A stretch of DNA of 20,405 nucleotides from a virus, in the IMG/VR virus record IMGVR_UViG_3300007541_000318, positions 1 through 20,405 of that record; one strand, 5' to 3'. Numbering within the stretch: position 1 is the stretch's first letter; every line of letters begins with the position of its first letter. The notes beneath the pieces were generated by a model, which saw nothing but the letters and a program-made list of their open reading frames with translations, was not told where the DNA came from and made no database searches. Of the stretch, positions 3-14,751 are shown one piece after another. A program made the position numbers and the translations under genes.

Positions 3-194
3 GTACAGCATACAAGTCGTGTAAGAACATGGGTACAAGCTCAAAAGAGATATACTATTTCTGGTATGGACGGAACAGAACCAATCAAGCAGCCTAGTCG
101 GAGCGATTTGGAAGATGGCTTCCGTTCCTTTTTGGATAGTGGCGGCTTCCAAGGCAAAAGACCAGACAATGATTCACGAAAAACAGATGCCTAA
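3..194 (+). CDS. C-terminal fragment of unidentified protein upstream of terL (5' truncated)
   Basis: The frame is open from the window edge to a TAA at 192-194 and gives 63 residues, with the start outside the window. The visible tail is hydrophilic, with an aromatic patch near the beginning and a segment reading DLEDGFRSFLDSGGF, then a charged end. The stop shares its last base with the ATG of the terminase gene (TAATG), so the two are probably translationally coupled. In T4 the gene before the large terminase is the small terminase subunit gp16. That is a positional guess only, since nothing in these 63 residues identifies it. Confidence 0.6.
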   Translation, partial: VQHTSRVRTWVQAQKRYTISGMDGTEPIKQPSRSDLEDGFRSFLDSGGFQGKRPDNDSRKTDA

Positions 195-1777
195 TGGTTG
201 TACAATTAACCAAAAAAGAAATAATCAAAGAGGTAGTTAAATCTGGTAAAGACCCTGTTTATTTCATTAATAATTATTGTAGGATTTCCCATCCTCTTAA
301 AGGTTTAATTCCTTTTAAAACTTTTGATTACCAAGACGAGTTACTAGAAGATTTTAATGATCACCGCTTTACAGTAATTCTAAAAGCAAGACAGCTTGGT
401 ATTTCTACGATTGTTGCTGCCTATGTTGTGTGGCTAATGCTTTTCCACCGCGACAAGAATATTCTTGTCATGGCAACTAAATTCAGCACGGCAGCCAACT
501 TAGTTAAAAAAGTAAAGATGATTATGCGGAACTTGCCTGATTGGATTCGCATTGCAAACATCTCAATCGATAATAGAACAAGCTTTGAGCTTTCAAATGG
601 CTCTCAGATTAAAGCAACATCCACGTCAGGTGATGCTGGTCGTTCCGAAGCACTCTCACTTCTCGTCATTGATGAGGCTGCACACGTTGATGGACTAGAT
701 AAACTTTGGACTGGTTTGTATCCAACGCTATCAACAGGTGGCCGCTGTATTGCTCTATCCACCCCTAACGGTGTTGGTAACTGGTTTCATAAAACATATG
801 TTGAAGCTGAGCAGGAAGAGAATAAGTTCAAACCAATCTGTCTACCTTGGAATGTACACCCAGAGAGAGACCAAGCTTGGTTTGAAGAAGAAACAAAGAA
901 TATGTCTCGCAGACAGATTGCTCAAGAGCTTGAATGTAATTTCAATACATCAGGCGAAACTGTACTTCACCCTGATGATCTGGAAAGAATACAAAACAGC
1001 ATAGTAGATCCGAAACATAGAACTGGTTTTGATAGAAACTATTGGATCTGGGAAGAGTATCAAGCTGATAGTAATTACATGGTTGTGGCAGACGTTGCTC
1101 GCGGTGATGGAGCAGACTATTCTGTTTTTCATGTTTTCAAGCTTGAAACAATGGAAGTAATAGCGGAATATCAAGGAAAGCCTTCACTCGATATGTATGC
1201 CAATGTTCTTAACCAAGTTGGGAAAGAATACGGTGATGCTCTTATGGTTGTCGAAAATGTCGGTATTGGAATTTCTGTTTTAGAAAAACTCGTTGAGCTT
1301 GAGTATCCAAATATTTATTACTCTATAAAAGGTACTCATGAATATGTTGACCCCGCTTCAGCAAACTTAAGCAGGAATGCTGTAGCTGGTTTTACCACTT
1401 CTTCCAAAACAAGACCACTGATTGTTGCTAAGCTTGAAGAATTTATAAGAAATAAACTAATTAACACATATTCTGTTCGTTTGTTTAATGAGTTTAAGAC
1501 TTTTGTTTGGAATAATGGGAAGCCACAGGCGATGCGAACTTATCATGACGATCTAGTCATGTCTTTAGCTATCGGTTGTTGGGTAAGAGATACTGCATTG
1601 ACAGTTAATCAAAGAAATGTTAATTATAAGAAAGCATGCTTAGAATCTATCATATTTAGTAATACAAAAATCAATACACAGATACCGGGACAGCTTGGTT
1701 ATGATAAAGACTTCGCTCAAAAAATGAAAGAACAACATACTGAATATCAACAATATTCATGGCTCTTAAAAGGATAG
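194..1777 (+). CDS. terL: Terminase large subunit (T4 gp17-like DNA-packaging ATPase/nuclease)
   Basis: This is the motor that pumps genome DNA through the portal and cuts concatemers. It has 527 aa against about 610 in T4 gp17. The N-terminal ATPase shows a Q-like motif TFDYQDEL (43-50), a Walker A variant KARQLGIST (64-72), a Walker B with catalytic Glu LLVIDEA (156-162), and a coupling motif STPNG (189-193). The C-terminal RNase H-like nuclease has its acidic residues in VVADVARGDGADYS (D300), VVENVGIG (E354) and YHDDLVMSLAI (D452/D453). The ATG at 194 lacks a clear Shine-Dalgarno and overlaps the upstream stop by one base, which suggests coupling. The portal gene follows 4 bases after its stop. 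The identification is secure. Unlike T4, no sheath or tube genes stand between it and the portal. Confidence 0.97.
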   Translation: MVVQLTKKEIIKEVVKSGKDPVYFINNYCRISHPLKGLIPFKTFDYQDELLEDFNDHRFTVILKARQLGISTIVAAYVVWLMLFHRDKNILVMATKFSTAANLVKKVKMIMRNLPDWIRIANISIDNRTSFELSNGSQIKATSTSGDAGRSEALSLLVIDEAAHVDGLDKLWTGLYPTLSTGGRCIALSTPNGVGNWFHKTYVEAEQEENKFKPICLPWNVHPERDQAWFEEETKNMSRRQIAQELECNFNTSGETVLHPDDLERIQNSIVDPKHRTGFDRNYWIWEEYQADSNYMVVADVARGDGADYSVFHVFKLETMEVIAEYQGKPSLDMYANVLNQVGKEYGDALMVVENVGIGISVLEKLVELEYPNIYYSIKGTHEYVDPASANLSRNAVAGFTTSSKTRPLIVAKLEEFIRNKLINTYSVRLFNEFKTFVWNNGKPQAMRTYHDDLVMSLAIGCWVRDTALTVNQRNVNYKKACLESIIFSNTKINTQIPGQLGYDKDFAQKMKEQHTEYQQYSWLLKG

Positions 1778-1781
1778 TTAA

Positions 1782-3740
1782 ATGGCTGATCAAAAAAGAA
1801 ATCCAAGAAATGTAGAATCTAATTTATTTAGAAGGCTTACTAAGCTTTTCTCTGGTCCAATAACGAACTACCGTTCACAGATCACAAGAGACTATAAAAG
1901 ATCACAGTTAGATTATTACGCTACGAGATTTAAGAGTGCATCAGGGCAACAGTTTAAGAAAAGTGGTTATGATCCATTTTCACAAATTAACACTGCTGCT
2001 ATGGCCAACCAGAGAAGAGCAGAAAGGTATACTGATTTTGATCAGATGGAGTATACTCCAGAAATTGCATCGGCCCTTGATATATACGCAGATGAGATGA
2101 CAACACACTCATCTTTGCAGCCTATGCTGTCTATTAAGTGCTCCAATGCAGAAATAAAAGCAATACTAACAACACTTTATCAAAACATCTTAAATATTGA
2201 ATATAATCTGTTTGGTTGGTCTCGTACAATGTGCAAGTATGGAGACTATTTTTTGTATCTAGACATAGATGAGAAATTAGGAATTAAGAGCGTTATTGGT
2301 CTTCCATCTGCAGAAGTCGAGAGACTGGAAGGAGAAGATAAGACAAATCCAAATTATGTTCAGTTTCAATGGAACTCAGCCGGCATGACTCTTGAGAACT
2401 GGCAGGTCGCTCACTTCCGTATTCTAGGAAATGACAAGTATACTCCATATGGCACTTCTGTTCTTGAAGCTGCTAGGCGTATATGGAGACAGCTTATTCT
2501 AATGGAAGACGCAATGATGGCTTACCGAGTTGTCCGCGCACCAGAAAGAAGAGTATTTTATGTAGACGTTGGCAATATTCCTCCATCTGATGTTGAGCAA
2601 TACATGCAAAAAGTCATGACTCAGATGAAGCGAAATCAACTTGTAAACGCTCAAACTGGCCGTGTTGATCTTCGTTATAATCCGTCGAGCGTCGAGGAAG
2701 ATTATTTCATTCCAGTTAGAGGCGATACTTCTTCCAAGGTAGAGACTTTAACAGGAGGACAGAACACAGCAGCCATTGATGATGTTAAATATTTGAGAGA
2801 TAAATTGTTTTCTGCTCTCAAGATTCCTGCTGCATACTTGACGCAAGGCGATGCTGTCAACGAGGACAAGACAACACTTGCCCAGAAGGACATTCGTTTC
2901 GCAAGAACAATCCAAAGATTGCAAAGAGCAGTTGTTTCTGAACTAGAAAAGATTGGCATTATTCACCTGTATACACTTGGCTTTAGGGGTGACGATCTTT
3001 TGAACTTTAAGTTATTCCTCAACAACCCTTCAAAGATTGCGGAGCTTCAAGAACTAGAACATTGGAAAGCAAAATTTGAAATTGCAAGCAATGCAGTCGA
3101 AGGCTACTTCAGTCGTAGGTGGATTTCAGAACATCTTTTCAGTATGACAGAAGAAGAGTTCTTGAGAAACCAGAGAGAACTTTTCTATGATAAGAAATAT
3201 GACGCTCAACTCAATGCTGCGGCAGAAGCGGCTGGACAGGCAGAGGCCAATCGAATTGCGCCACCGTCTGACGGAGGCTTGTTTGGCGGTGGTGACCTCG
3301 GTGGTGCTCCACCGGAAACAGAAGCTGGAGGGGAGCTTCCGGGTGGCGCAGCTGGAGGAGGAGAACCAACTGGAGCAGACACTGGAGGCGCAGCAACTGA
3401 AGAGCCAGCCGGCGCAGAGGCTGGGACCGGCTCATCCTTACTGGCAGTACCGCCAGCAAAGAGAGATATTGATGAGGAGGATGGAAGAAAAACAGCTAAA
3501 AAACCATCTGGCTATGGGCGATCAAAGAGTATGCGCAACACAGCAACAGGAGAATTTGGTACTTCTAGAACAATAAATCTTGGTTGGAGTGGGGTAAATG
3601 GTATGAAACCCCTTTCTCAAGGGATTGTTGAAGAAGAAGCTTCTATTTATGAAAGAAGGCAACTTTTAGAAGAAAGGTCTATTCTGCAGACAAACGATGA
3701 AATCCAAAAGCTTTTAAAAGGCTTAGAAACAAAGGAATAA
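1782..3740 (+). CDS. gp20: Portal protein (T4 gp20-like) with low-complexity C-terminal extension
   Basis: The portal is a dodecamer at the special capsid vertex. It nucleates prohead assembly and is the DNA entry channel and terminase docking site. Residues about 25-470 carry the gp20-type core, including the region around WQVAHFRILGNDKYTPYGTS (207-226), RRIWRQLILMEDAMMAYRVV (232-251) and SALKIPAAYLTQG (344-356). At 652 aa it is about 130 longer than T4 gp20. The excess is C-terminal: residues about 478-556 are Ala/Gly/Glu/Pro-rich and disordered-looking, followed by a basic segment (560-586) and a short helical charged end. The ribosome site AAAAGGA overlaps the last codons of terL, 7-8 bases before the ATG. 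The core is certain and the role of the tail is unknown. Confidence 0.95.
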   Translation: MADQKRNPRNVESNLFRRLTKLFSGPITNYRSQITRDYKRSQLDYYATRFKSASGQQFKKSGYDPFSQINTAAMANQRRAERYTDFDQMEYTPEIASALDIYADEMTTHSSLQPMLSIKCSNAEIKAILTTLYQNILNIEYNLFGWSRTMCKYGDYFLYLDIDEKLGIKSVIGLPSAEVERLEGEDKTNPNYVQFQWNSAGMTLENWQVAHFRILGNDKYTPYGTSVLEAARRIWRQLILMEDAMMAYRVVRAPERRVFYVDVGNIPPSDVEQYMQKVMTQMKRNQLVNAQTGRVDLRYNPSSVEEDYFIPVRGDTSSKVETLTGGQNTAAIDDVKYLRDKLFSALKIPAAYLTQGDAVNEDKTTLAQKDIRFARTIQRLQRAVVSELEKIGIIHLYTLGFRGDDLLNFKLFLNNPSKIAELQELEHWKAKFEIASNAVEGYFSRRWISEHLFSMTEEEFLRNQRELFYDKKYDAQLNAAAEAAGQAEANRIAPPSDGGLFGGGDLGGAPPETEAGGELPGGAAGGGEPTGADTGGAATEEPAGAEAGTGSSLLAVPPAKRDIDEEDGRKTAKKPSGYGRSKSMRNTATGEFGTSRTINLGWSGVNGMKPLSQGIVEEEASIYERRQLLEERSILQTNDEIQKLLKGLETKE

Positions 3741-3746
3741 ATTATT

Positions 3747-4571
3747 ATGAGGCACAATAAAAAGAGAAATACTGCTTTTTTATTTGAAACTTTAATATGC
3801 GAGTTAACCAAAGCTATTGTATATGGGGACTTGCAGAAGCAGAAGGTTACAAGAAGCATTATCTCTAAGTACTTCTCCAAAGGCATGCCTCTGCATGAAA
3901 ACCTGTCTACATATATGACAATACTTGATACTAGAGGTGAAGAGAAGAACTTTGCAGAAAGAATTTTAAATGAGATGAAGTCGCAGAGAAAGTTCATTTT
4001 GGACGATACAGTGTTTGAAAGTCAGTCTGAGTTAATAAAAGATATGAATGTTGAGTATTCAAGAAATGTGTTTTCAAACTTTGTTCCAAATTATAAGAGC
4101 CTAGCAACAATCGCTCAGATGTTCAATCAAGAAATGCCAATAAAAGAAAAGGTTCTTCTTGAGACAAAGATTATAAATTTTATGTGCTCTGAACCGGAAG
4201 CAAGGAAAGAGGAAAACTTACAGCCTATAGATAATTTAGTTTACAAAACATTTGTTCAAAAGTTTAACGATAAATACTCTGATTCCCTCCTTAGCGAACA
4301 AAAAGTTCTTCTAAATCGTTTTGTTGGCTCGTTCCAAGATAATGGATTAGAACTCAAAATCTTTTTAAATAGTGAAGTTGGAAGACTAAAAGAAGCTATG
4401 ACTAAATGCTTGGAGGTGAGAGAGATAGTTGAAGATCAAGCGATGCTTCAGAATGCAAAAAGAATTATTGAAGAACTTAGCAGTTTCTCTACAAGAGAAA
4501 TAGATGACTCTATGATCAAATCAGTGTTGAAAATTCAAGAGCTAGTTAAGGAACTTGAGCATGGCAATTAA
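3747..4571 (+). CDS. Uncharacterised 274-aa protein between portal and protease
   Basis: I do not recognise an established function. The protein is soluble and predicted mostly helical, with no membrane segment or signal peptide. The N-terminus RHNKKRNTAFLFETLI followed by a Thr/Lys-rich helix looks like the conserved end of a family seen beside the portal in marine T4-like phages, but that is from memory. The C-terminal third is charged and helical, possibly coiled coil (about 205-272). AAGGAA at 3732-3737 lies 9 bases before the ATG. Its 3' end overlaps the next gene by 11 bases, so the pair is probably co-translated. In T4 the corresponding slot between genes 20 and 21 holds core proteins 67 and 68. 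A prohead role is possible by position only. Confidence 0.85.
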   Translation: MRHNKKRNTAFLFETLICELTKAIVYGDLQKQKVTRSIISKYFSKGMPLHENLSTYMTILDTRGEEKNFAERILNEMKSQRKFILDDTVFESQSELIKDMNVEYSRNVFSNFVPNYKSLATIAQMFNQEMPIKEKVLLETKIINFMCSEPEARKEENLQPIDNLVYKTFVQKFNDKYSDSLLSEQKVLLNRFVGSFQDNGLELKIFLNSEVGRLKEAMTKCLEVREIVEDQAMLQNAKRIIEELSSFSTREIDDSMIKSVLKIQELVKELEHGN

Positions 4572-5136
4572 AATAAAAGTAAGCTCTAAGAAGAGAGACG
4601 AAAAACCAAAAGAAGCCCAAAAGCCAAATATCAAGTTGCAACTTGATATAAGAAGAACACTTGATGATAATTTAATTATCTCGGATCATCCTGATGTTGA
4701 TATTGTTGTTTACATAAAAGAAAGTAAAATTGTTCTTTTTCCGAAGGAAGTGCTAAGTGAGGTTGTGTATGATACACAAGATCGCTTCTTTAAATTTATG
4801 GAAAAGAAAGGAATTGTTAATCCAGAAACAGTTAGAGGTGGAAACACGTATGGTTCAATGGAAGGCTTGTTTCTTTCTGGCGACGGTGGGAAAGAAGAAT
4901 CTTTGCCACTTGTTATTTTAAATATAGAAAATTTCATTGATCAAGAAAGGCCACATTTTGAGTATGTTGAAAAATATAAAAAGATGGAAGATGAAGAGCT
5001 TCTTGAGCCCAGCGAAGAAGATTCGACAAATCTAGGTGAAGTTCCACAAGAAGAGACAAAGGGAAGTATTCGACCCGGCTATGGTGGAACGCGATCATAT
5101 TATTTAAGTTATCTTTACGAGGCTCTTGGGTTGTGA
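4561..5136 (+). CDS. Uncharacterised 191-aa acidic protein downstream of the 274-aa gene
   Basis: Function not recognised. The start is taken as the ATG at 4561 rather than the in-frame TTG at 4555, because AUG is preferred and the product then begins AIKIKVSSKK. The N-terminus (to residue about 26) is Lys-rich and likely disordered. The middle (about 27-140) looks like a compact alpha/beta domain with strands such as VDIVVYIKESKIVLFP. The C-terminus has an acidic stretch (about 143-165) and ends in an aromatic SYYLSYLYEALGL helix. The gene overlaps its upstream neighbour by 11 bases, and its TGA overlaps the GTG start of the kinase-like gene. These three genes therefore form a translationally coupled run. 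Confidence 0.82.
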   Translation: MAIKIKVSSKKRDEKPKEAQKPNIKLQLDIRRTLDDNLIISDHPDVDIVVYIKESKIVLFPKEVLSEVVYDTQDRFFKFMEKKGIVNPETVRGGNTYGSMEGLFLSGDGGKEESLPLVILNIENFIDQERPHFEYVEKYKKMEDEELLEPSEEDSTNLGEVPQEETKGSIRPGYGGTRSYYLSYLYEALGL

Positions 5137-5825
5137 AGCTCTTACTTGAAAATTGGAAGAACTTCATAAATGAAACAATAACATTTGGGATCTCCAAAGA
5201 TATTGATAAAGATACGCTTGCTAAGATTTTTAAATGGGCAAATGTTTCAGACACTTCAAATATCGAGCATATAGGTTCTGCCTCTATGGGAAGTGCCTAT
5301 AGGATAGATCAAAACAAAGTTTTAAAGATAACAAATGATATGTCTGAAGCAAACAGCGCTGGGATTTTAATTAAATCTGGCTTATCGCACCCAAACGTTT
5401 ATCAAGTTTATAAAGTTGGTAAGTTTTTAGCAGATGGCAGACCAAGGTATGCTTTAGTGTTGGAGCTTTTACAACAGCCAACCGAACAGATGAAGTATGC
5501 AATGAGTTCTATTGATTCTCTAGTAAGACTAGGTAGATCTGGTGAGGGCCTATATTCTTGGGGCGGCTTTGGTAAAGATCCAAACTTAGATAAGAGAATA
5601 GATATTATAGCTATAGATGGCGAAAGTCGCCACGGCTACAATAAAGAGGAAATAAAATCCCACATTGATAAGCTAGCATCTGGTCTTACTTTTCTAAAAA
5701 AGAATGGAATAAGATTCTCAGATTTAAAAGCTTCCAACGTCCTGCAAAGAGATGGCGAGCCCGTGATCATAGATCTAGGAAGAGTTGGTCTTAGTAGGTA
5801 TGTTGATATCGAAACTATTGATTAA
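5133..5825 (+). CDS. Small protein-kinase-like protein with T4-CTS-like N-terminus
   Basis: Predicted Ser/Thr-kinase-fold protein of 230 aa. Visible kinase signatures: a glycine-rich loop HIGSASMGSAY (46-56), a VLKI lysine (K65), a candidate helix-C Glu (E72), a hinge-like ALVLELL (107-113), a catalytic loop SDLKASN (196-202, with D197, K199, N202), and a DFG equivalent DLG (214-216). The HRD His-Arg are replaced by Phe-Ser, and only 14 residues follow DLG. The activation segment, APE motif and most of the C-lobe helices are therefore absent, making this a minimal or atypical kinase. The first 14 residues end in ENWKNFINE, resembling the T4 internal-protein targeting peptide with an I-N-E site. 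The start is a GTG overlapping the preceding stop (GTGA), with GAGG about 13 bases upstream. The fold call is good; activity and targets are unknown. Confidence 0.85.
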   Translation: MKLLLENWKNFINETITFGISKDIDKDTLAKIFKWANVSDTSNIEHIGSASMGSAYRIDQNKVLKITNDMSEANSAGILIKSGLSHPNVYQVYKVGKFLADGRPRYALVLELLQQPTEQMKYAMSSIDSLVRLGRSGEGLYSWGGFGKDPNLDKRIDIIAIDGESRHGYNKEEIKSHIDKLASGLTFLKKNGIRFSDLKASNVLQRDGEPVIIDLGRVGLSRYVDIETID

Positions 5826-5837
5826 TCTGGAGTAATA

Positions 5838-6146
5838 ATGGATTTATTATACTTTGTGTTGGCTGCTTATGGAATGACGCAGCTAATAGTTTATGGCTCA
5901 ATCTTCAACAAGATAAGGCCAACAAAAGAATGGCTATATGGTTTTGGAGAGTTGTTTAATTGTCCAATGTGTATGGGTTTTTGGGTTGGGGTCTTTTTAT
6001 GTGGTTTAAATGGCTTCACAGAACTATTTAATTATGATCATACTTTAGCAAATTATTTTGTTTTGGGCTGCTTAAGTTCTGGAACTTCATACATTCTAAA
6101 TATGGTTTTTGATGATAGCGGAATTAAAATTAGGAGTTCACAATGA
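5838..6146 (+). CDS. Small integral membrane protein, DUF1360-like
   Basis: A 102-aa protein with three predicted membrane helices: about residues 3-23, 43-62 and 69-90. A conserved-looking CPMCMGFWVG motif (C42 and C45) sits at the start of the second helix, the hallmark of the DUF1360 family of small phage and bacterial membrane proteins of unknown function. GGAG at 5829-5832 is placed 5 bases before the ATG. It follows the kinase-like gene by 12 bases and overlaps a mini-ORF at its stop (ATGA). It is presumably in the host inner membrane during infection; a lysis or superinfection role is possible but unsupported. Family assignment is from motif and topology recall, not a search. Confidence 0.85.
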   Translation: MDLLYFVLAAYGMTQLIVYGSIFNKIRPTKEWLYGFGELFNCPMCMGFWVGVFLCGLNGFTELFNYDHTLANYFVLGCLSSGTSYILNMVFDDSGIKIRSSQ

Positions 6147-6257: not shown

Positions 6258-6569
6258 ATGAAGATTACGAAATCACAACTAAAACAGCTTATCAAGGAAG
6301 AACTTACAGCAGTTATGGAAGGTGAAGAGCTTTCCATAGATGCTCAAAAAATAAAAAGTTATGATTGGCCACGAGGGAAAACAAGCTTTGATGATGAAAA
6401 AGATGTACGTCCGAAGATCCAAGATGTTATTGGAAGCTTAGAAATATCAGAACCCGGAATGCTTAACTGGGATCGTTCAAAAGATCAGATTGTTTATCTT
6501 GGAAGAGATAAAAACACTGCATATTTCAAGACTTCAAATTCTGGTCACTACTACAAACTGGATATTTAA
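6258..6569 (+). CDS. 103-aa protein with SQLKQLIKEE-type N-terminus, possible prohead core protein
   Basis: Function not recognised. The N-terminus reads KITKSQLKQLIKEEL, a short amphipathic Lys/Leu/Glu helix. The same kind of peptide starts the proteins encoded at 7186 and 9585. It contains L-I-K-E, matching the T4 gp21 protease rule (L/I)-X-E. The rest (about 25-103) looks like a small beta-rich domain, ending in a run of strands (QIVYLGRDKNTAYFKTSN, then GHYYKLDI). The ribosome site AAGGAA precedes the ATG by about 10 bases. The protease gene starts 2 bases after its stop. Position next to the protease and the shared N-terminus suggest a processed internal head protein. This is inference. 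Confidence 0.85.
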   Translation: MKITKSQLKQLIKEELTAVMEGEELSIDAQKIKSYDWPRGKTSFDDEKDVRPKIQDVIGSLEISEPGMLNWDRSKDQIVYLGRDKNTAYFKTSNSGHYYKLDI

Positions 6570-6571
6570 TT

Positions 6572-7189
6572 ATGGGAAAACAACTTTTACGAGAATATTA
6601 TGAATTATGTGATGGTGGAGTTTGTCAAGATCTACTGACTGAAGCCGAAAAAAAGTATGTGGCTGAAGGTGGTATGATTCTTTCTGGCTGCATGCAGAAG
6701 TCTAATACACCAAATGGTAATGGACGTGTATATCCAGACAAAATCCTTCGAAGAGAAATCGATAATTATATGAAGCTCGTAAAAGAAAGAAGAGCTTTAG
6801 GAGAATTGGATCATCCAGATGACTCAGTAATCAACTTAAAAAATGCCTCACACATGGTTACTGATATATGGTGGGATGGCGATGCAGTCATGGGCAAGGT
6901 TAAAGTTCTTAATACTCCGTCTGGAAAGATCCTGCAAGCGCTTGTTAACGATGAATGCAAGCTTGGGATATCCTCAAGATCTCTTGGTTCGCTTGATGAA
7001 TCAAAGGGTCACGCTATTGTGCAAGAAGATCTGCAATTGATTTGTTTCGACTTCGTTTCTGAGCCTTCAACACCGGGCGCATTTATGAGTCCAAATGCTA
7101 GGATTAGCGAAGGAAAACAGCCTAACATATTTACAAGAGCAGATAAAATTAATCGTTTGTTAAACAGCATTGTTGGTGACTTTAAATGA
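6572..7189 (+). CDS. gp21: Prohead core protease (T4 gp21-like, peptidase family U35)
   Basis: This is the serine-type maturation protease that sits in the prohead core and trims scaffold, internal and capsid proteins before DNA packaging. It has 205 aa, close to T4 gp21 (212). Family signatures are GMILSGCMQKSNTPNGNGRVYP (in two pieces, 33-40 and 41-55), ALGELDHPDD with the presumed catalytic His (H81), KLGISSRSLGS with the nucleophile Ser in the 134-137 region, and CFDFVSEPSTPGAFM (159-172) with a conserved Asp. The N-terminal 25 residues include LLTE, a possible self-cleavage site. The Shine-Dalgarno is weak (GGA upstream). The TGA overlaps the ATG of the next gene (ATGA). Confident identification. 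Confidence 0.95.
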   Translation: MGKQLLREYYELCDGGVCQDLLTEAEKKYVAEGGMILSGCMQKSNTPNGNGRVYPDKILRREIDNYMKLVKERRALGELDHPDDSVINLKNASHMVTDIWWDGDAVMGKVKVLNTPSGKILQALVNDECKLGISSRSLGSLDESKGHAIVQEDLQLICFDFVSEPSTPGAFMSPNARISEGKQPNIFTRADKINRLLNSIVGDFK

Positions 7190-7569
7190 AGAAAAGTCAA
7201 CTTGAAATGTTGGTCCGAGAAGCCCTAGAAGAGGGCTTTTTTTGGGATAAGCTTGTTCCAAGTCTTGTTCCAAATCCAGAAATTTATAGAAAGCATCGTG
7301 AACAGGCACTCATAGATCGTGGTTTTAAGAGGGCTCCACTGCGCGATCCTTTAGCGTTACCCGGTGGAGAAGAAATAGACAAAGATACTGGAAAGACATA
7401 CGCAGAACTTACAGCTATCTGGAAAGCCAACGGCGGCGAACTGGACTATAGAGGTCGACCAAAAGAGATCGTTTATTATATTGATATCGATGGCATACGA
7501 AAAGAAAGAGAGCAATCGATTCCAATTGGAAGTTTGTCTCAAAAATTGAGAGCAGCAAGGAAAGTATAA
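7186..7569 (+). CDS. 127-aa candidate prohead internal protein with processed-type N-terminus
   Basis: Function not recognised. It begins KKSQLEMLVREALEEGFF, nearly the same peptide type as the proteins at 6258 and 9585. A consensus cleavage site L-E-E lies before G-F-F. The rest is hydrophilic and charged, with a strand segment EIVYYIDIDGI (about 94-104) and a basic C-terminus. The start overlaps the protease stop (ATGA), so it is translated together with the protease, as expected for a core component. It is followed by a 42-base gap holding a candidate promoter. Assignment as an internal head protein rests on position and N-terminal peptide only. Confidence 0.85.
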   Translation: MKKSQLEMLVREALEEGFFWDKLVPSLVPNPEIYRKHREQALIDRGFKRAPLRDPLALPGGEEIDKDTGKTYAELTAIWKANGGELDYRGRPKEIVYYIDIDGIRKEREQSIPIGSLSQKLRAARKV

Positions 7570-7611: not shown

Positions 7612-9588
7612 ATGTCAAGCATGAAAAGAGATTTAGAAATCCAGAGAATTGTTATTTCCGAAATTAAGATGGCAATTCTTGAGGAAAACATTCTTAATGA
7701 AGGTATATGGGACAGCCTTAAGAACGCATTCGCAAAGCTTGGCTCACTTGAGAAAGGCGGCTCAATGTTTGGAAAGTCAGAGAGATCCCAAAAAGCAAGA
7801 GAACAAGCAGAAGATGCTGCCTCGAAACTTGAAACCAAAGCAAGCGCTGCATCTAAAGCTCTTGTCACAAGGCTCCGTGGTGACTTTGTTAAATCAGGTT
7901 ACCCAAACCAAAAAGATAAATACGAATTTTTAGAGCAGACATATGAAATTGAAGCTTTATACGACTCCCTAAAGAAGTCTGTTGAAGATGGCAAAATGGA
8001 TAGCTCTCTTGCCAATGAGTTAATCGAAGAACTTAGAATTCTTGTTAAAAAGTTCTTAGATTACGATTTAGCAGATGTTTATAAACACTTTAACGAGTCA
8101 GAAGACCCACTTAATGAAGAAGAGATTTCTGGAAAAGATAAATCTTCCACAACTATGAAGGGCCTTGAAAGCAACATGCTTCCAGCTATCTTGGCAGCCC
8201 TTGGAACTACTGGTATTCTTGGAAACGTATTTTTAAATTCTGATATATTTAAAAATCTTACGACACAGATTGTAAAAACAGGTGGCTCGCCAGCACAAGT
8301 TGTGAAACAAATTAAGCAAAAGGCTTTACAAATCGGACCACAAGCCGGAGAGGGAATGACGCAGATGGTCTCTAGACTTAGTGGAGTCCCTCTAGATCCT
8401 AACTCTACACTAGATCAGTTTTTCCAAGCTGCTGGAAAGATTGGAATTACACCTAGCAATATTGAACAAATTGGCGTTAATCTTGGAGCTGACTCTGGAG
8501 CTTACGCAACAGCTGCAAAACAAGTCGGAAACGCCACACTTGGCAAGGTGTTTGGAACAAGACCAGAGTTTTTCCTTGATAAGGGTTCAGAAGTTACAAC
8601 ACAAGTTTTTGATACTGTAATGAAGAATATCCCCGGCATAGCGGCTAAGACTGCTGTTAAGACTACAACTGCTGGGAAGATTGGCGCATTGGTTGCTCCT
8701 TATTTGGGTGCTCTGGGTGTTAGTTTAGTAGCGGCGGCAGCCGGCGTTAAGGCATTGAGAGTTAAAGGACAGAAATCATCTAGAGCGCAAGTTCTCAATG
8801 ATCTTCTACAAAAGCTAGATTTTCTAAATGACAATGGTGGCGAAAGTGGTCCAAAGAAGCCGCCAATATTAGTAGATCCAACAAAAAAACCAAAAACAAC
8901 AGAAATAGATCCTACTGAAGAGCCACCACCAGAACCATCACCCTTGGAGCCTCCGGTTAGGGAGCCAGAGGATGATCAAAGACAAATTACTGGCCCCGAA
9001 GACGATCAGAGACAAATTACTGGCCCTGAAGACGATCAAAGACAAATTACTGGTCCTGATGATAAGCCAGAGAAACCATATGGCTTCCCACTTTATAATC
9101 AGGGTGGTGTTGAAGATATAGTTAAGAAGTTCTTTAAAGATAGGAAACAGAGAGTTAGCCCTAGAGAACTAGAGATCTTCCTTGGCGAGATAGAAGATTG
9201 GCTAATGAATGCACGCAAGAGAGGAGCAGATTATTACGACATTCAAGACAGAGATTTCATGAACCTCGCAGAAAAGAATAGTAGAGTTAAAAGCCCGAAC
9301 ATACCGATTAAACGAAATGTAGCAAGAGGCTCTAGGGGTAGATCTTTAGATCGTTTCTTAATGACATACCTCAAAAATGCATCTTCTGCAGGCAGAAAGC
9401 AGGGAGGCCTAGGTATGTTCAAAAAACTGAATCCAAAAGAGCTTGCCAAGCTTAGAAAAATGATTGTTAAGTATGTTTATGATTATCTAGATAAGCAGGG
9501 TGCTCCAGTTCAAGAGTCGGAGGAAGACAACCTCATGCTCGAAAGGTGGAGTAGGCTGGCCGGCATTACAAACAAGAAGGTGCTATGA
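7612..9588 (+). CDS. 658-aa putative prohead internal/ejected protein with two hydrophobic segments and RLAGIT tail
   Basis: Not recognised by name. Regions in order: a Leu/Glu N-terminus with L-N-E then G-I-W-D (28-34), a likely processing site; a helical charged region (40-170); a hydrophobic segment LPAILAALGTTGILGNVFL (190-208); a Gly/Gln-rich middle; a second hydrophobic Ala/Val-rich segment (356-382); a Pro-rich linker (415-450); three perfect EDDQRQITGP repeats (453-482); a helical C-terminal domain (495-625); and a final ERWSRLAGIT (644-653), matching the scaffold's C-terminus. The ATG at 7612 follows AAGGGAG by about 10 bases. The next gene overlaps its stop (ATGA). Size, hydrophobic stretches and tags fit an internal protein possibly ejected with the DNA. 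This is inference. Confidence 0.85.
   Translation: MSSMKRDLEIQRIVISEIKMAILEENILNEGIWDSLKNAFAKLGSLEKGGSMFGKSERSQKAREQAEDAASKLETKASAASKALVTRLRGDFVKSGYPNQKDKYEFLEQTYEIEALYDSLKKSVEDGKMDSSLANELIEELRILVKKFLDYDLADVYKHFNESEDPLNEEEISGKDKSSTTMKGLESNMLPAILAALGTTGILGNVFLNSDIFKNLTTQIVKTGGSPAQVVKQIKQKALQIGPQAGEGMTQMVSRLSGVPLDPNSTLDQFFQAAGKIGITPSNIEQIGVNLGADSGAYATAAKQVGNATLGKVFGTRPEFFLDKGSEVTTQVFDTVMKNIPGIAAKTAVKTTTAGKIGALVAPYLGALGVSLVAAAAGVKALRVKGQKSSRAQVLNDLLQKLDFLNDNGGESGPKKPPILVDPTKKPKTTEIDPTEEPPPEPSPLEPPVREPEDDQRQITGPEDDQRQITGPEDDQRQITGPDDKPEKPYGFPLYNQGGVEDIVKKFFKDRKQRVSPRELEIFLGEIEDWLMNARKRGADYYDIQDRDFMNLAEKNSRVKSPNIPIKRNVARGSRGRSLDRFLMTYLKNASSAGRKQGGLGMFKKLNPKELAKLRKMIVKYVYDYLDKQGAPVQESEEDNLMLERWSRLAGITNKKVL
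8968..9057 (+). repeat. Three tandem 30-bp repeats (EDDQRQITGP x3)
   Basis: Three in-frame 30-base units at 8968-8997, 8998-9027 and 9028-9057 differ at only a few silent positions and each encodes EDDQRQITGP. They lie at the end of a Pro-rich linker in the 658-aa protein. Near-identity at the DNA level points to recent duplication, and copy number is likely variable between relatives. Confidence 0.95.
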
Positions 9589-10004
9589 GAAAATCGGAAT
9601 TAAAAAAGATCATTAAGCCACTTGTTAAAGAGTGTATAAATGAATGCCTTATTGAAGAGGGCATTCTATCCTCTATTGTCGCAGAAGTTGCTAAAGGTAT
9701 GGGTGCTCCGCTTATACAAGAGCAGGCTGCACCCCGTCCACTTTCAAAGCCAGTTTTTAAAGCAGAAACTATTGCTAGAAAGCCATCTATGAATGAAAGC
9801 AAAAAGAAGCTTTTAGATGCGATAGGCAATAGTGCTTATGGTGGAGTTGATCTTTTTGAAGGAACAACACCAGATATTCCAGAACAAAGATCGGAAGCTT
9901 CTATGGGAAGCCCACTTTCTGATGTTGATCCATCCGATCCCGGTGTAGATATATCTGGTATTATTGCACTTGGTGGATCAAAATGGAAAGCTTTTATGGG
10001 CTAA
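9585..10004 (+). CDS. 139-aa candidate prohead core protein with processed-type N-terminus
   Basis: Function not recognised. It starts RKSELKKIIKPLVKECINE, the third member of the Lys-Ser-x-Leu N-terminal group. The peptide ends in L-I-E-E before G-I-L-S-S-I, again a (L/I)-X-E site followed by Gly-Ile. The mature part would be Ala/Pro/Ser-rich and probably largely disordered, with one helix (72-82) and a short hydrophobic GIIALGGSKWKAF end. The ATG overlaps the stop of the 658-aa gene (ATGA). It could correspond in role to the small T4 core proteins gp67/gp68, but no sequence match is claimed. Confidence 0.82.
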   Translation: MRKSELKKIIKPLVKECINECLIEEGILSSIVAEVAKGMGAPLIQEQAAPRPLSKPVFKAETIARKPSMNESKKKLLDAIGNSAYGGVDLFEGTTPDIPEQRSEASMGSPLSDVDPSDPGVDISGIIALGGSKWKAFMG

Positions 10005-11837: not shown

Positions 11838-11871
11838 CTTGTGAAGAAATCTTCTTTTGGAGAAAATGTTA

Positions 11872-12930
11872 ATGTCAACATTATTAGAACAAGCCATTAT
11901 AGATGCGGCTGCACTCAAGGAAGCAGCCCTTAAGAGTGCTGAAAAATCAATTCTTGATAAGTATGCACCAGAAGTCCGTGAAGCTGTCACATCACTCCTA
12001 GAACAGGAGGAAGATGAGCTAGGGATGGGCCTAGAGGACGAAGGCGATGATGAGAGTGTAATCCCTTTAGGCGCAGAAGAGGGTGAAAAGCTCTGTCCTT
12101 GTCCAGACGATGATGAAGAAATTTATGTTGATCTTATTAATGTTTCCGATCTTGCAAAGAAGTTATCATCTGAAACTGAAACACCGGAAGATATTGCTGA
12201 TCAAGTTACAGATGGTGGCGGAGAAGGTGAAGAAGAGATGCTTGAGTTAACCGAGGAGATGCTGGATTCTCTTGAGGAAGACGAACTCAATGAAGCAAAG
12301 AAGGCTAAAGACGGGATGGATGAAGAGATTGAAATTACGGAAGAAAATCTAGACTCCATCATGGAAGAACTGATTGTAGATATTAGACCTCAAAAGAGTG
12401 GTTGGGCTGGAACGCCTACTTCTACAATGGATTATTATGCGGAGCTTGAGCTAGCACGCCTCGCCTCAACAGAGGCTCAAGAAGAGATTGAGACTATGAA
12501 AAAGGCTCTCTCTAATATTAAGAAGGACTATGCTCAACTAAGCGAGAGCTTTGATTCTGTCAATGGCAGAAATAAAAAGCTCACCCAAACAGTTTCTAGC
12601 TTGAAAGATAAGCTTGAAGAAGTAAATCTTACAAATGCTAGATTATTTTACACGAATCGTGTGCTGAATAGCGACTCCTTGAATGAGCGGCAAAAGTCTA
12701 AAATTGTCGAAGCTATTTCAGAATCTCGTTCTGTAAATGAAGCGAAGATTGTATTTGAAACGCTTCAAAACGCAGTGGGTTCACATTCTACAAGAATGTT
12801 GCCAAAATCACTGAGTGAGGCGGTCAATAGAACTTCGACTTTGATGGCTCGTAGAGAACCATCAAGCAGTGCTGACACGTCTGCAGTCGAGCGTTTGCAA
12901 AGACTAGCAGGCATAACCAAACTTAATTAG
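11872..12930 (+). CDS. gp22: Prohead scaffold (core) protein, T4 gp22-like
   Basis: This protein forms the inner core on which the capsid shell assembles, and is then degraded by the gp21 protease. I use the ATG at 11872 (352 aa, starting STLLEQAIIDAAALKEAALK) because GGAG lies 9 bases upstream. In-frame TTG 11857 and ATG 11866 are too close to that site. The protein is highly acidic (about 43-165) with many (L/I)-X-E sites. It then has a coiled-coil region (about 188-260) and the conserved-looking gp22 segment FYTNRVLNSDSLNERQKSK (259-277) continuing to FETLQNAV. It ends VERLQRLAGITKLN, sharing its last motif with the 658-aa protein. It lies directly before the capsid gene, as in T4. T4 gp22 is about 269 aa. 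Confidence 0.9.
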   Translation: MSTLLEQAIIDAAALKEAALKSAEKSILDKYAPEVREAVTSLLEQEEDELGMGLEDEGDDESVIPLGAEEGEKLCPCPDDDEEIYVDLINVSDLAKKLSSETETPEDIADQVTDGGGEGEEEMLELTEEMLDSLEEDELNEAKKAKDGMDEEIEITEENLDSIMEELIVDIRPQKSGWAGTPTSTMDYYAELELARLASTEAQEEIETMKKALSNIKKDYAQLSESFDSVNGRNKKLTQTVSSLKDKLEEVNLTNARLFYTNRVLNSDSLNERQKSKIVEAISESRSVNEAKIVFETLQNAVGSHSTRMLPKSLSEAVNRTSTLMARREPSSSADTSAVERLQRLAGITKLN

Positions 12931-12942
12931 GAGATTAACAAA

Positions 12943-14751
12943 ATGTCTATTTTAGAGAAACTAACAGAAGGTATTGTTAATCGAGATCTCCGTCAAGAAG
13001 GTGCTGCTCTTCTCTCCAAGTGGGAAAGAACAGGGCTTCTGGAAGGTCTCGGTAGTGATCGTACCAAGCATACAATGGCTAGATTACTAGAGAATCAGGC
13101 TAAGCAGCTACTCAAGGAGGCAGCGGGTTCATCCATGGCCGCTGGCGACGTTGAGGGCTTTGCTGCTGTCGCCTTCCCGATTGTTCGCCGTGTTTTCGGT
13201 GGACTTATTGCTAACGATCTCGTTAGCGTTCAGCCGATGAGCCTTCCATCAGGTCTCATCTTCTTCCTCGATTTCACCTTCGGTGACACTCGTCTCGGTC
13301 AGACCGATGGCGATTCCCTCTACGGTGGTGGTGTCGTTGGTCAGGCTCTAACAGGTGGTGTTTCCCTAACGGGCGATGCTGCTGATGTTGGTCCTTACAA
13401 CCTCAACAACGGCTTCTCCTCCGCGACTGGCTCAATCAGCATTAAAACTGGTTTTGTTGTAGAGGCTTCTGGTGTCGTTCAGAACCCATCTGACGCTACT
13501 TATCCTCTAACAACAGCACAGTCCGATAAGCTTAGCCGTCTTGTCCGTTATGATCCAGATCTTTCTGGCTCTACTGTTGTTGTCGTTTCTATGACCGGAT
13601 CTTCAACCCTTACACAGCTTAATACTCAAGATCTTGTTGCTATTTCAGCTGGTGATGCGAAGGCTGTTAGAACTGGTCGTCTTGTGCGCCATCTAACCCA
13701 GCTTTCTTCTGGCTCAACTGGCGATCAGGCTCCGGGTCAGGCTGGTTACAAGGTTACGATGGTCTTCGAAACCACGGGTACAATGGGCATCGGTGGACCG
13801 GGCTCTGGGCTTGCTGTGGACAGCACAGACAACCTCTTGCAGCTTCTCACTGGTTCTGGTGTTAAGTCTTTTGATTTCCCAATCGTTGATAACTTTAACG
13901 GCACTGCGACTGCAGGTGCTTCACAGGCTATCGGCGCTGTCAGAGCTACTGATACATGGGGCCTTGAAGATAATGCAGATATCCCTGAGATTGATATCAA
14001 GGTTGATTCTGTCTCGGTCACGGCTATCACCAAGAAGCTCAAGGCTAAGTGGACACCAGAGCTTGGTCAGGATCTAAACGCCTACCACAACCTCGACGCC
14101 GAGGTTGAGCTAACCAGCATTCTCTCCGAGCAGATTGCTCTAGAGATTGACCGTGAGATTCTTGAGGATCTCATCAAGGGTGCTACAGCTGGCACCTTCT
14201 ACTGGTCACGCTCACCGGGCCTCTTTGTGGATCGTGCAACTGGTGCTGAGGTCGGCGCATCTGCCAAGGCTCCTGACTTCACTGGCACGGTCAGCGAGTG
14301 GTACGAGACGCTGGTTGAGACAATCAACGATGTGTCCGCTCAGATCCATCGTAAGACGCTCCGTGGCGGCGCGAACTTTATTGTTACATCCCCAGAGATG
14401 GCTAACATCCTTGAGTTCACTGCCGGCTTCCGCGCTAGCGTTACTCACGATGCTGACCGTGGCACAATTGGTGCTGTCAACGTTGGCTCACTTTCTAAGA
14501 AGTTCGATGTTTACATCGATCCTTACTTCCCACGTAACCTCGTGCTCGTCGGTCGTAAGGGTGGCAGCTTCCTAGAGAGCGGCTATGTTTACGCTCCATA
14601 CGTTCCACTACAGGTCACACCAACGATCTTCGGTGTCGAGGACTTCGTACCTCGCAAGGGCGTCATGACACGCTACGCCAAGAAGATGGTTCGTCCAGAC
14701 ATGTATGGTCTTGTTATCTGCCGTGGTCTCCTTGGTGAGTCTGGAGCCTGA
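12943..14751 (+). CDS. gp23: Major capsid protein (T4 gp23-like, HK97 fold)
   Basis: This is the main shell subunit, 602 aa against 521 in T4. The N-terminus has the gp23 pattern: LLSKWERTGLLEGL (23-36), then QAKQLLKEAAGSS (52-64). Prohead cleavage probably falls after E59 in L-K-E, comparable to the T4 cut after residue 65. The mature part begins near FAAVAFPIVRRVFGGLIAND (73-92), the conserved gp23 start. The C-terminal region with KKFDVYIDPYFPRNLVLVGR and APYVPLQVTPTI is also typical. AGGAG lies about 8 bases before the ATG. Codon use differs from neighbours: Arg is mainly CGT/CGC rather than AGA, and third positions are C-richer, as expected for the most highly expressed protein. A strong terminator follows. 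Confidence 0.96.
   Translation: MSILEKLTEGIVNRDLRQEGAALLSKWERTGLLEGLGSDRTKHTMARLLENQAKQLLKEAAGSSMAAGDVEGFAAVAFPIVRRVFGGLIANDLVSVQPMSLPSGLIFFLDFTFGDTRLGQTDGDSLYGGGVVGQALTGGVSLTGDAADVGPYNLNNGFSSATGSISIKTGFVVEASGVVQNPSDATYPLTTAQSDKLSRLVRYDPDLSGSTVVVVSMTGSSTLTQLNTQDLVAISAGDAKAVRTGRLVRHLTQLSSGSTGDQAPGQAGYKVTMVFETTGTMGIGGPGSGLAVDSTDNLLQLLTGSGVKSFDFPIVDNFNGTATAGASQAIGAVRATDTWGLEDNADIPEIDIKVDSVSVTAITKKLKAKWTPELGQDLNAYHNLDAEVELTSILSEQIALEIDREILEDLIKGATAGTFYWSRSPGLFVDRATGAEVGASAKAPDFTGTVSEWYETLVETINDVSAQIHRKTLRGGANFIVTSPEMANILEFTAGFRASVTHDADRGTIGAVNVGSLSKKFDVYIDPYFPRNLVLVGRKGGSFLESGYVYAPYVPLQVTPTIFGVEDFVPRKGVMTRYAKKMVRPDMYGLVICRGLLGESGA

Follow-up and report, generated by a model that had tools for sequence, protein, structure and literature searches.

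A truncated kinase gene among the head genes

To our knowledge, little has been described of what marine T4-like phages inject besides DNA. The locus described here raises the question of whether a small kinase-like protein, encoded among head genes, is carried in the phage head and delivered with the genome. The window analyzed is the whole IMG/VR record IMGVR_UViG_3300007541_000318 (positions 1-20,405; 20,405 bases). It comes from a T4-related virus of marine bacteria, and its T4-type head genes, all on the + strand, stand in a T4-like order: gp17, gp20, gp21, gp22-like, gp23. The large terminase gp17 (194..1777; PF03237, E 6.6e-11) and the portal protein gp20 (1782..3740; PF07230, E 4.6e-79) are followed by a gp21-type prohead protease of the Peptidase S77 family (6572..7189; PF03420, E 2.2e-31) and, further downstream, by the major capsid protein gp23 (12943..14751; PF07068, E 3.1e-72), whose propeptide is likely cut at LL[KR]E near residue 59. 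The gp22-like scaffold gene (11857..12930) had no scaffold match in the Pfam search and was assigned by its position before gp23 and a C-terminal RLAGI motif. A (W/R)xxLAGI C-terminus ends both this protein and a second one encoded near gp21 (7612-9588), and occurs in relatives as well (e.g. L147:15981-17051).

The kinase-like gene (5133..5825, +) encodes 230 amino acids and lies in a slot between two flanking genes, both on the + strand: directly upstream, a conserved DHPDxDIV protein gene (4555..5136), whose order is kept in relatives, and downstream a small membrane-type DUF1360 protein (5838..6146; PF07098, E 5.1e-6), likewise placed by synteny. Its GTG start and the stop codon of the gene before it overlap in GTGA (5133-5136); we take GTG-5133 as the start because the leader alignment described below supports it. 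The gp21 gene begins about 1.44 kb from this start, in agreement with the preliminary description of this DNA, which had placed a gp21-type protease 1.4 kb downstream.

A conserved short form of the kinase fold

That description had also read a Gly-rich loop, a VLK lysine, an SDLKASN loop and a DLG motif from the protein, and had noted a missing HRD His-Arg and the loss of most of the C-lobe. These features were found as described: the beta-3 lysine is K65 (5325..5327), the catalytic loop is D197-L-K199-A-S-N202 (5721..5738), the metal-binding motif is D214-L-G216 (5772..5780), F195-S196-D197 occupies the place of HRD, and 14 residues follow G216. The Gly-rich loop alone needs qualification; it is present but imperfect, reading GSASMG where relatives have GSGTMG. 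The Pfam Pkinase profile (PF00069) matches residues 167-217 only, with an E value of 2.2e-6 and 27.7 bits against a cut-off of 31.7. By its sub-cut-off score, its lack of the HRD His-Arg and its lack of a full C-lobe, the protein thus departs from a canonical PF00069 kinase.

Scans of IMG/VR returned four diverged relatives, L002 (296 aa), L167 (302 aa), L168 (315 aa) and L169 (302 aa), which are 35-38% identical to the window kinase in a five-row alignment (33% for L002 aligned alone). Seven positions are invariant in all five sequences: K65, E72, D197, K199, N202, D214 and G216, corresponding to the beta-3 Lys, the helix-C Glu, the catalytic Asp, the D+2 Lys, the D+5 Asn, and the D and G of DxG. 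F-x-D replaces HRD throughout. All five proteins end 13-15 residues past DxG, and no C-lobe motif was found in any forward frame of the 400 bases downstream of any of them. Since this end point is shared by all four relatives, the truncation reflects a conserved design rather than damage. The window protein keeps the ATP-binding lobe, helix E, the catalytic loop and the DxG site, and is without the activation segment and the remaining C-lobe. Leader-bearing kinases of a second group, L170 and L171 (353 aa), stop three residues past DxG. One further scan match, L003, was rejected as a relative, being an ordinary full-length kinase of bacterial type. INPHARED phages held no relatives of the window kinase and weak matches only for L002, and one scan of cellular genomes with the kinase alignment found no relative. 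Flavobacterium phage immuto has a kinase-like ORF of 146 aa (L164:18367-18807) that ends I-D-V and has Ser at the catalytic Asp position; the genes around it have other repeated N-termini in common (MENxFDLKKFLVENKLT).

Modeling of the window protein with AlphaFold2 gave a weak result (pLDDT 61), although Foldseek matched it to kinases, and the claim of a kinase fold therefore rests on the model of L167 (pLDDT 79, pTM 0.79). The best PDB match of the L167 model is the PKR kinase domain (Z 11.3, rmsd 3.2, 138 residues, range 37-296), and its top Z-ranked rows are protein kinases. The N-lobe, helix E, catalytic loop and DxG stand in kinase arrangement in this model and less clearly in that of the window protein. 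In L167, pLDDT is below 50 for residues 1-28, a stretch that closes with a second L-x-E (L-T-E, 26-28). In the Foldseek rankings, APH(2'') structures head the list for the window model and stand near the top for L167; the profile search and the Z-ranked matches favor protein kinases. Judged from these models, the window protein very probably has a kinase fold. Neither the lack of such a fold nor the loss of the catalytic residues in relatives, which the preliminary description had named as grounds against its hypothesis, was found: the fold search returned kinases, and D197, K199, N202 and D214 are kept in 5/5 sequences.

A leader peptide that recurs on unrelated proteins

The first 14 codons of the gene (5133..5174) encode MKLLLENWKNFINE. 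We searched IMG/VR with a DNA pattern for MKxLxExWxx[YF][LIVMF]xE and with a control of equal information in which the same codons were permuted. The leader pattern matched at least 120 stretches and the control 7; scan counts are lower bounds and include redundant contigs, and all carriers are uncultivated viruses. Among the matches listed, open frames of at least 50 aa follow in 156 of 164, and the leader-stripped proteins of at least 60 aa number 154 in 87 unrelated clusters. The survey of the N-terminal peptide proposed in the preliminary description thus finds it recurring, and in gp21-bearing phages. The consensus is MKLLxENWRx[YF][LI]xE, in which positions left free by the pattern are also conserved (L3 71%, N7 82%, R9 68%). 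Information falls from 4.3 bits at the pattern-fixed E14 to 1.1 and 0.6 at the pattern-free positions 15 and 16. Conservation falls right past E14, and the leader therefore ends in L/I-x-E, the published cleavage motif of T4 gp21 (PMC9026906). In the window protein, this is I12-N13-E14 (5166..5174), the I-N-E pointed out earlier and a predicted gp21 site with the cut after E14.

When leaders were collected with only the head MKx(L)xExW, L-x-E stood exactly at residues 12-14 in 198/237 cases; in 27 more of the 237 it lay close by, frequently one residue off (YLLTE, FLMNE). L/I/V/M-x-E falls inside residues 11-20 in 225/237, a fraction open to bias because the loci had been fetched by the full pattern. 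The kinase relative L169 has V-L-E at 12-14, not L/I-x-E, and L-A-E at 26-28. Codons vary at the conserved leader residues and the upstream bases carry almost no information, which argues for selection on the peptide and rules out a promoter or a shared-DNA origin. The leader stands directly after the start codon in 32 of 41 occurrences gathered without requiring ATG, and at the start codon in 199 of 205 ATG-ascertained matches. Together, these data indicate that the leader is almost certainly a real shared tag.

Association with the prohead protease

In T4, gp21 cleaves behind L/I-X-E, and the ten N-terminal residues of IPIII suffice for packaging (PMC9026906). Among the matches listed, an S77 gp21-type protease was present in 12/12 leader contigs of at least 150 kb. 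It was absent from two permuted-control contigs of that size, a control that is thin because large marine contigs are often T4-like. The isolates immuto and Mel-JY01 have the protease and no leader; the leader is also absent from LR756508, and a search of INPHARED with two leader cargoes gave no informative isolate. The gp23 N-termini of ten leader-carrying phages share a conserved LL[KR]E at the point where the propeptide is expected to end. We do not claim the leader as a copy of the gp23 propeptide (LLENQAKQLLKE), since 48 of 2000 shuffles score as high.

The preliminary description had likened the first 14 residues to the T4 targeting peptide. The likeness holds for construction and for recurrence on unrelated proteins. 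In sequence, the similarity is not significant: T4 IPII and IPIII both begin MKTYQEFIAE (T4 record), the leader scores 18 against this peptide, and an unrelated T4 N-terminus scores 21. The case for a capsid tag consequently rests on construction and distribution rather than homology. On these features of the sequences, we consider it quite likely that the leader is a tag for the capsid.

Leader-bearing proteins and a second leader

Upstream of the L002 kinase gene lies one for a SAM-lyase-family protein (PF23780, E 5.3e-8) that begins MKQLMESWNKYINES; since this protein carries the leader, the peptide is not kinase-specific. SAM lyases are SAM-consuming enzymes that counter restriction in other phages. 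Two leader-bearing members of the family (L002:576-1133; L172:4354-4665, E 1.3e-3) are candidate injected anti-restriction enzymes. Other domains found behind the leader are methyltransferase, NUDIX, HAD, zeta-toxin/AAA-type kinase, HD, GDSL, amidase, M23 peptidase, ParB-like, nucleotidyltransferase, phosphodiesterase, guanylate kinase and DnaQ-type. The guanylate kinase, DnaQ-type exonuclease and NUDIX proteins look like nucleotide or nucleic-acid enzymes and less obviously like injected effectors. An assignment of YHYT-type cargo as ADP-ribosyltransferase was dropped for want of a Pfam match.

Large contigs carry 1-10 leader genes each, whereas the reversed pattern gave none. Operons at a distance from the head genes contain most of the leader genes. 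L168 has seven consecutive genes with the leader or a close variant, the kinase in their middle (L168:4150-8626); nearly all overlap start to stop, and they encode phosphodiesterase-like, kinase, HAD-like, guanylate-kinase-like and unknown proteins. L169 also lies in a leader operon away from head genes, as seen via G052. The window, a 20-kb fragment, has one gene of this leader. The slot between the DHPDxDIV gene and DUF1360/gp21 that holds the window kinase is filled by leader proteins of 182 aa in genome G020 (L147) and of 164 aa in G036 (L155), and has no leader gene in several further genomes. Across genomes other than the window's, its occupants are unrelated proteins, or it has none.

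A second leader, MKITKxQLKxIIKEE, was matched in at least 120 IMG/VR stretches, with none for its control, and stands on 167 proteins in 133 clusters among the matches listed. The S77 protease was found in 5/5 second-leader contigs of at least 150 kb, again among the matches listed. Ten cargoes of the first leader have homologues with the second; in the clearest pair, 64% identical over 210 residues, homology begins just behind the leaders. Neither leader sequence was found in the open-access PMC literature searched. Three window genes start with variants of the second leader (6258-6569, 7186-7569 and 9585-10004). From these sequence patterns, it appears reasonably likely that uncultivated T4-like phages have at least two interchangeable leaders with a prohead-protease motif at their ends, which mark dozens to more than 100 unrelated enzyme families, including truncated kinases and SAM lyases, for packaging and injection.

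Alternative explanations

The main alternative to capsid targeting is that the leader is a real shared address for a structure other than the capsid, such as a membrane site, a replication site or a multi-enzyme complex, and that the kinase acts late in the producing cell. The metabolic look of many cargoes (guanylate kinase, HAD, NUDIX, DnaQ-type) and the distance of most leader operons from the head genes would fit such an address. However, the leader ends at a gp21-type motif where conservation stops, gp21 accompanies it in all 12 large carriers among the matches listed, and leader genes adjoin gp21 in three genomes, the window included. Distance from the head genes is also a feature of T4 itself, where ipI, ipII and ipIII lie away from the head gene cluster, with nudE and denV among the genes nearby (T4 record). 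We regard this account as unlikely. That the artefact of a frameshift-truncated kinase with a chance N-terminal resemblance could underlie the observations, as the missing C-lobe and the single leader gene of the window might suggest, is already refuted by the common end point of four relatives with no C-lobe downstream and by leader counts (at least 120 stretches) far above the control (7).

Two further explanations concern what the kinase does. It might be a packaged structural or regulatory part of the prohead core, either a pseudokinase or an enzyme acting on head proteins during assembly rather than on the host. The T4 small core genes lie between gp20 and gp21, as the kinase gene does, and the degenerate Gly loop and missing HRD would suit a pseudokinase; yet all catalytic residues are invariant across diverged relatives, the slot elsewhere holds unrelated proteins or none, unlike what an essential core part would show, and the relatives L168 and L169 sit in leader operons away from head genes. 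Such a role seems improbable, and we give a similarly low probability to an enzyme that phosphorylates a small molecule or nucleotide, in the manner of aminoglycoside-phosphotransferase-type kinases, rather than proteins. The APH(2'') structures at or near the head of the Foldseek matches speak for it, as does the missing C-lobe surface that binds protein substrates, whereas D-x-K-x-x-N is the Ser/Thr protein kinase form, and the profile search and Z-ranked matches point to protein kinases.

Proposed mechanism and implications

Returning to capsid targeting, the kinase is probably injected cargo because its leader is built like the T4 head-packing tag; it would be one cargo of a packaging route like that of the T4 internal proteins, leaving the head with the DNA to act on the host. 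From the available data, we infer its packaging, cleavage, ejection, catalysis and targets as follows. The leader would bring the kinase into the scaffold core at head assembly, and the gp21-type protease encoded 1.4 kb downstream would cut after I-N-E, leaving the mature kinase inside the head. This form would be ejected into the host together with the DNA and may phosphorylate host factors or the first-line defence at the start of infection. T4 internal proteins likewise probably act on first-response defences (PMC9391042). For activity of the ejected kinase on host molecules, we judge the chances to be even. The interpretation put forward in the preliminary description is, as a whole, partly supported.

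Should the leader prove to be a packaging tag, injected proteins could be predicted by sequence search, one for each gene that carries it; the first such predictions include truncated kinases and SAM lyases. The concept known from T4, in which diverse internal proteins share a capsid-targeting sequence (CTS), would then extend from three small proteins plus Alt to whole enzyme operons, and candidate tags for loading proteins into phage heads would be at hand. If the modular address system is real, sequence alone could suffice to read the injected protein set.

Comparison with known systems

Short phage kinases such as those of Ralstonia phage RSB1 (224 aa) and T7 (gene 0.7) are similarly compact, and RSB1 and others are among the fold matches. 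The T7 gene 0.7 kinase is made after infection, whereas the window kinase is proposed to be packaged. We know of no shared 14-residue leader in the DarA and Hdf proteins of phage P1. Those counter-defence proteins are likewise tied to the head and to infection (PMC12810830), but they are unrelated to the window kinase. The Kinase-PolyVal kinases of polyvalent proteins lost the C-terminal subdomain, kept the active-site residues and were proposed to be delivered with DNA and to modify host proteins (Iyer et al. 2017, PMC5512222). The window kinase likewise has its active site without the C-terminal subdomain. It differs in lacking the insert between the conserved His position and the catalytic Asp and in being small with a leader, whereas polyvalent proteins are large and multidomain; the PF18762 (Kinase-PolyVal) profile gave 12.8 and 15.1 bits, far below its 27-bit cut-off.

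What is proposed here resembles T4 Alt: an enzyme carried in the head whose N-terminus is trimmed at L/I-x-E and which acts early on the host. Alt is an ADP-ribosyltransferase and the window protein has the kinase fold, with no ADP-ribosyltransferase domain in the Pfam search; its packaging is predicted. The likeness to T4 IPI, IPII and IPIII lies in a short N-terminal peptide starting MK, which in IPII and IPIII ends in aromatic-I-x-E, in T4-type head genes with gp21, and in unrelated cargo with only the leader in common (PMC3012670, PMC9026906). Indeed, the T4 internal proteins are diverse defence proteins that share only the CTS (PMC3012670). The window leader, in contrast, has 14 residues with conserved L4, E6 and W8 and is not significantly similar in sequence, and its carriers, known from sequence alone, have up to ten leader genes per genome with enzyme cargo of many kinds.
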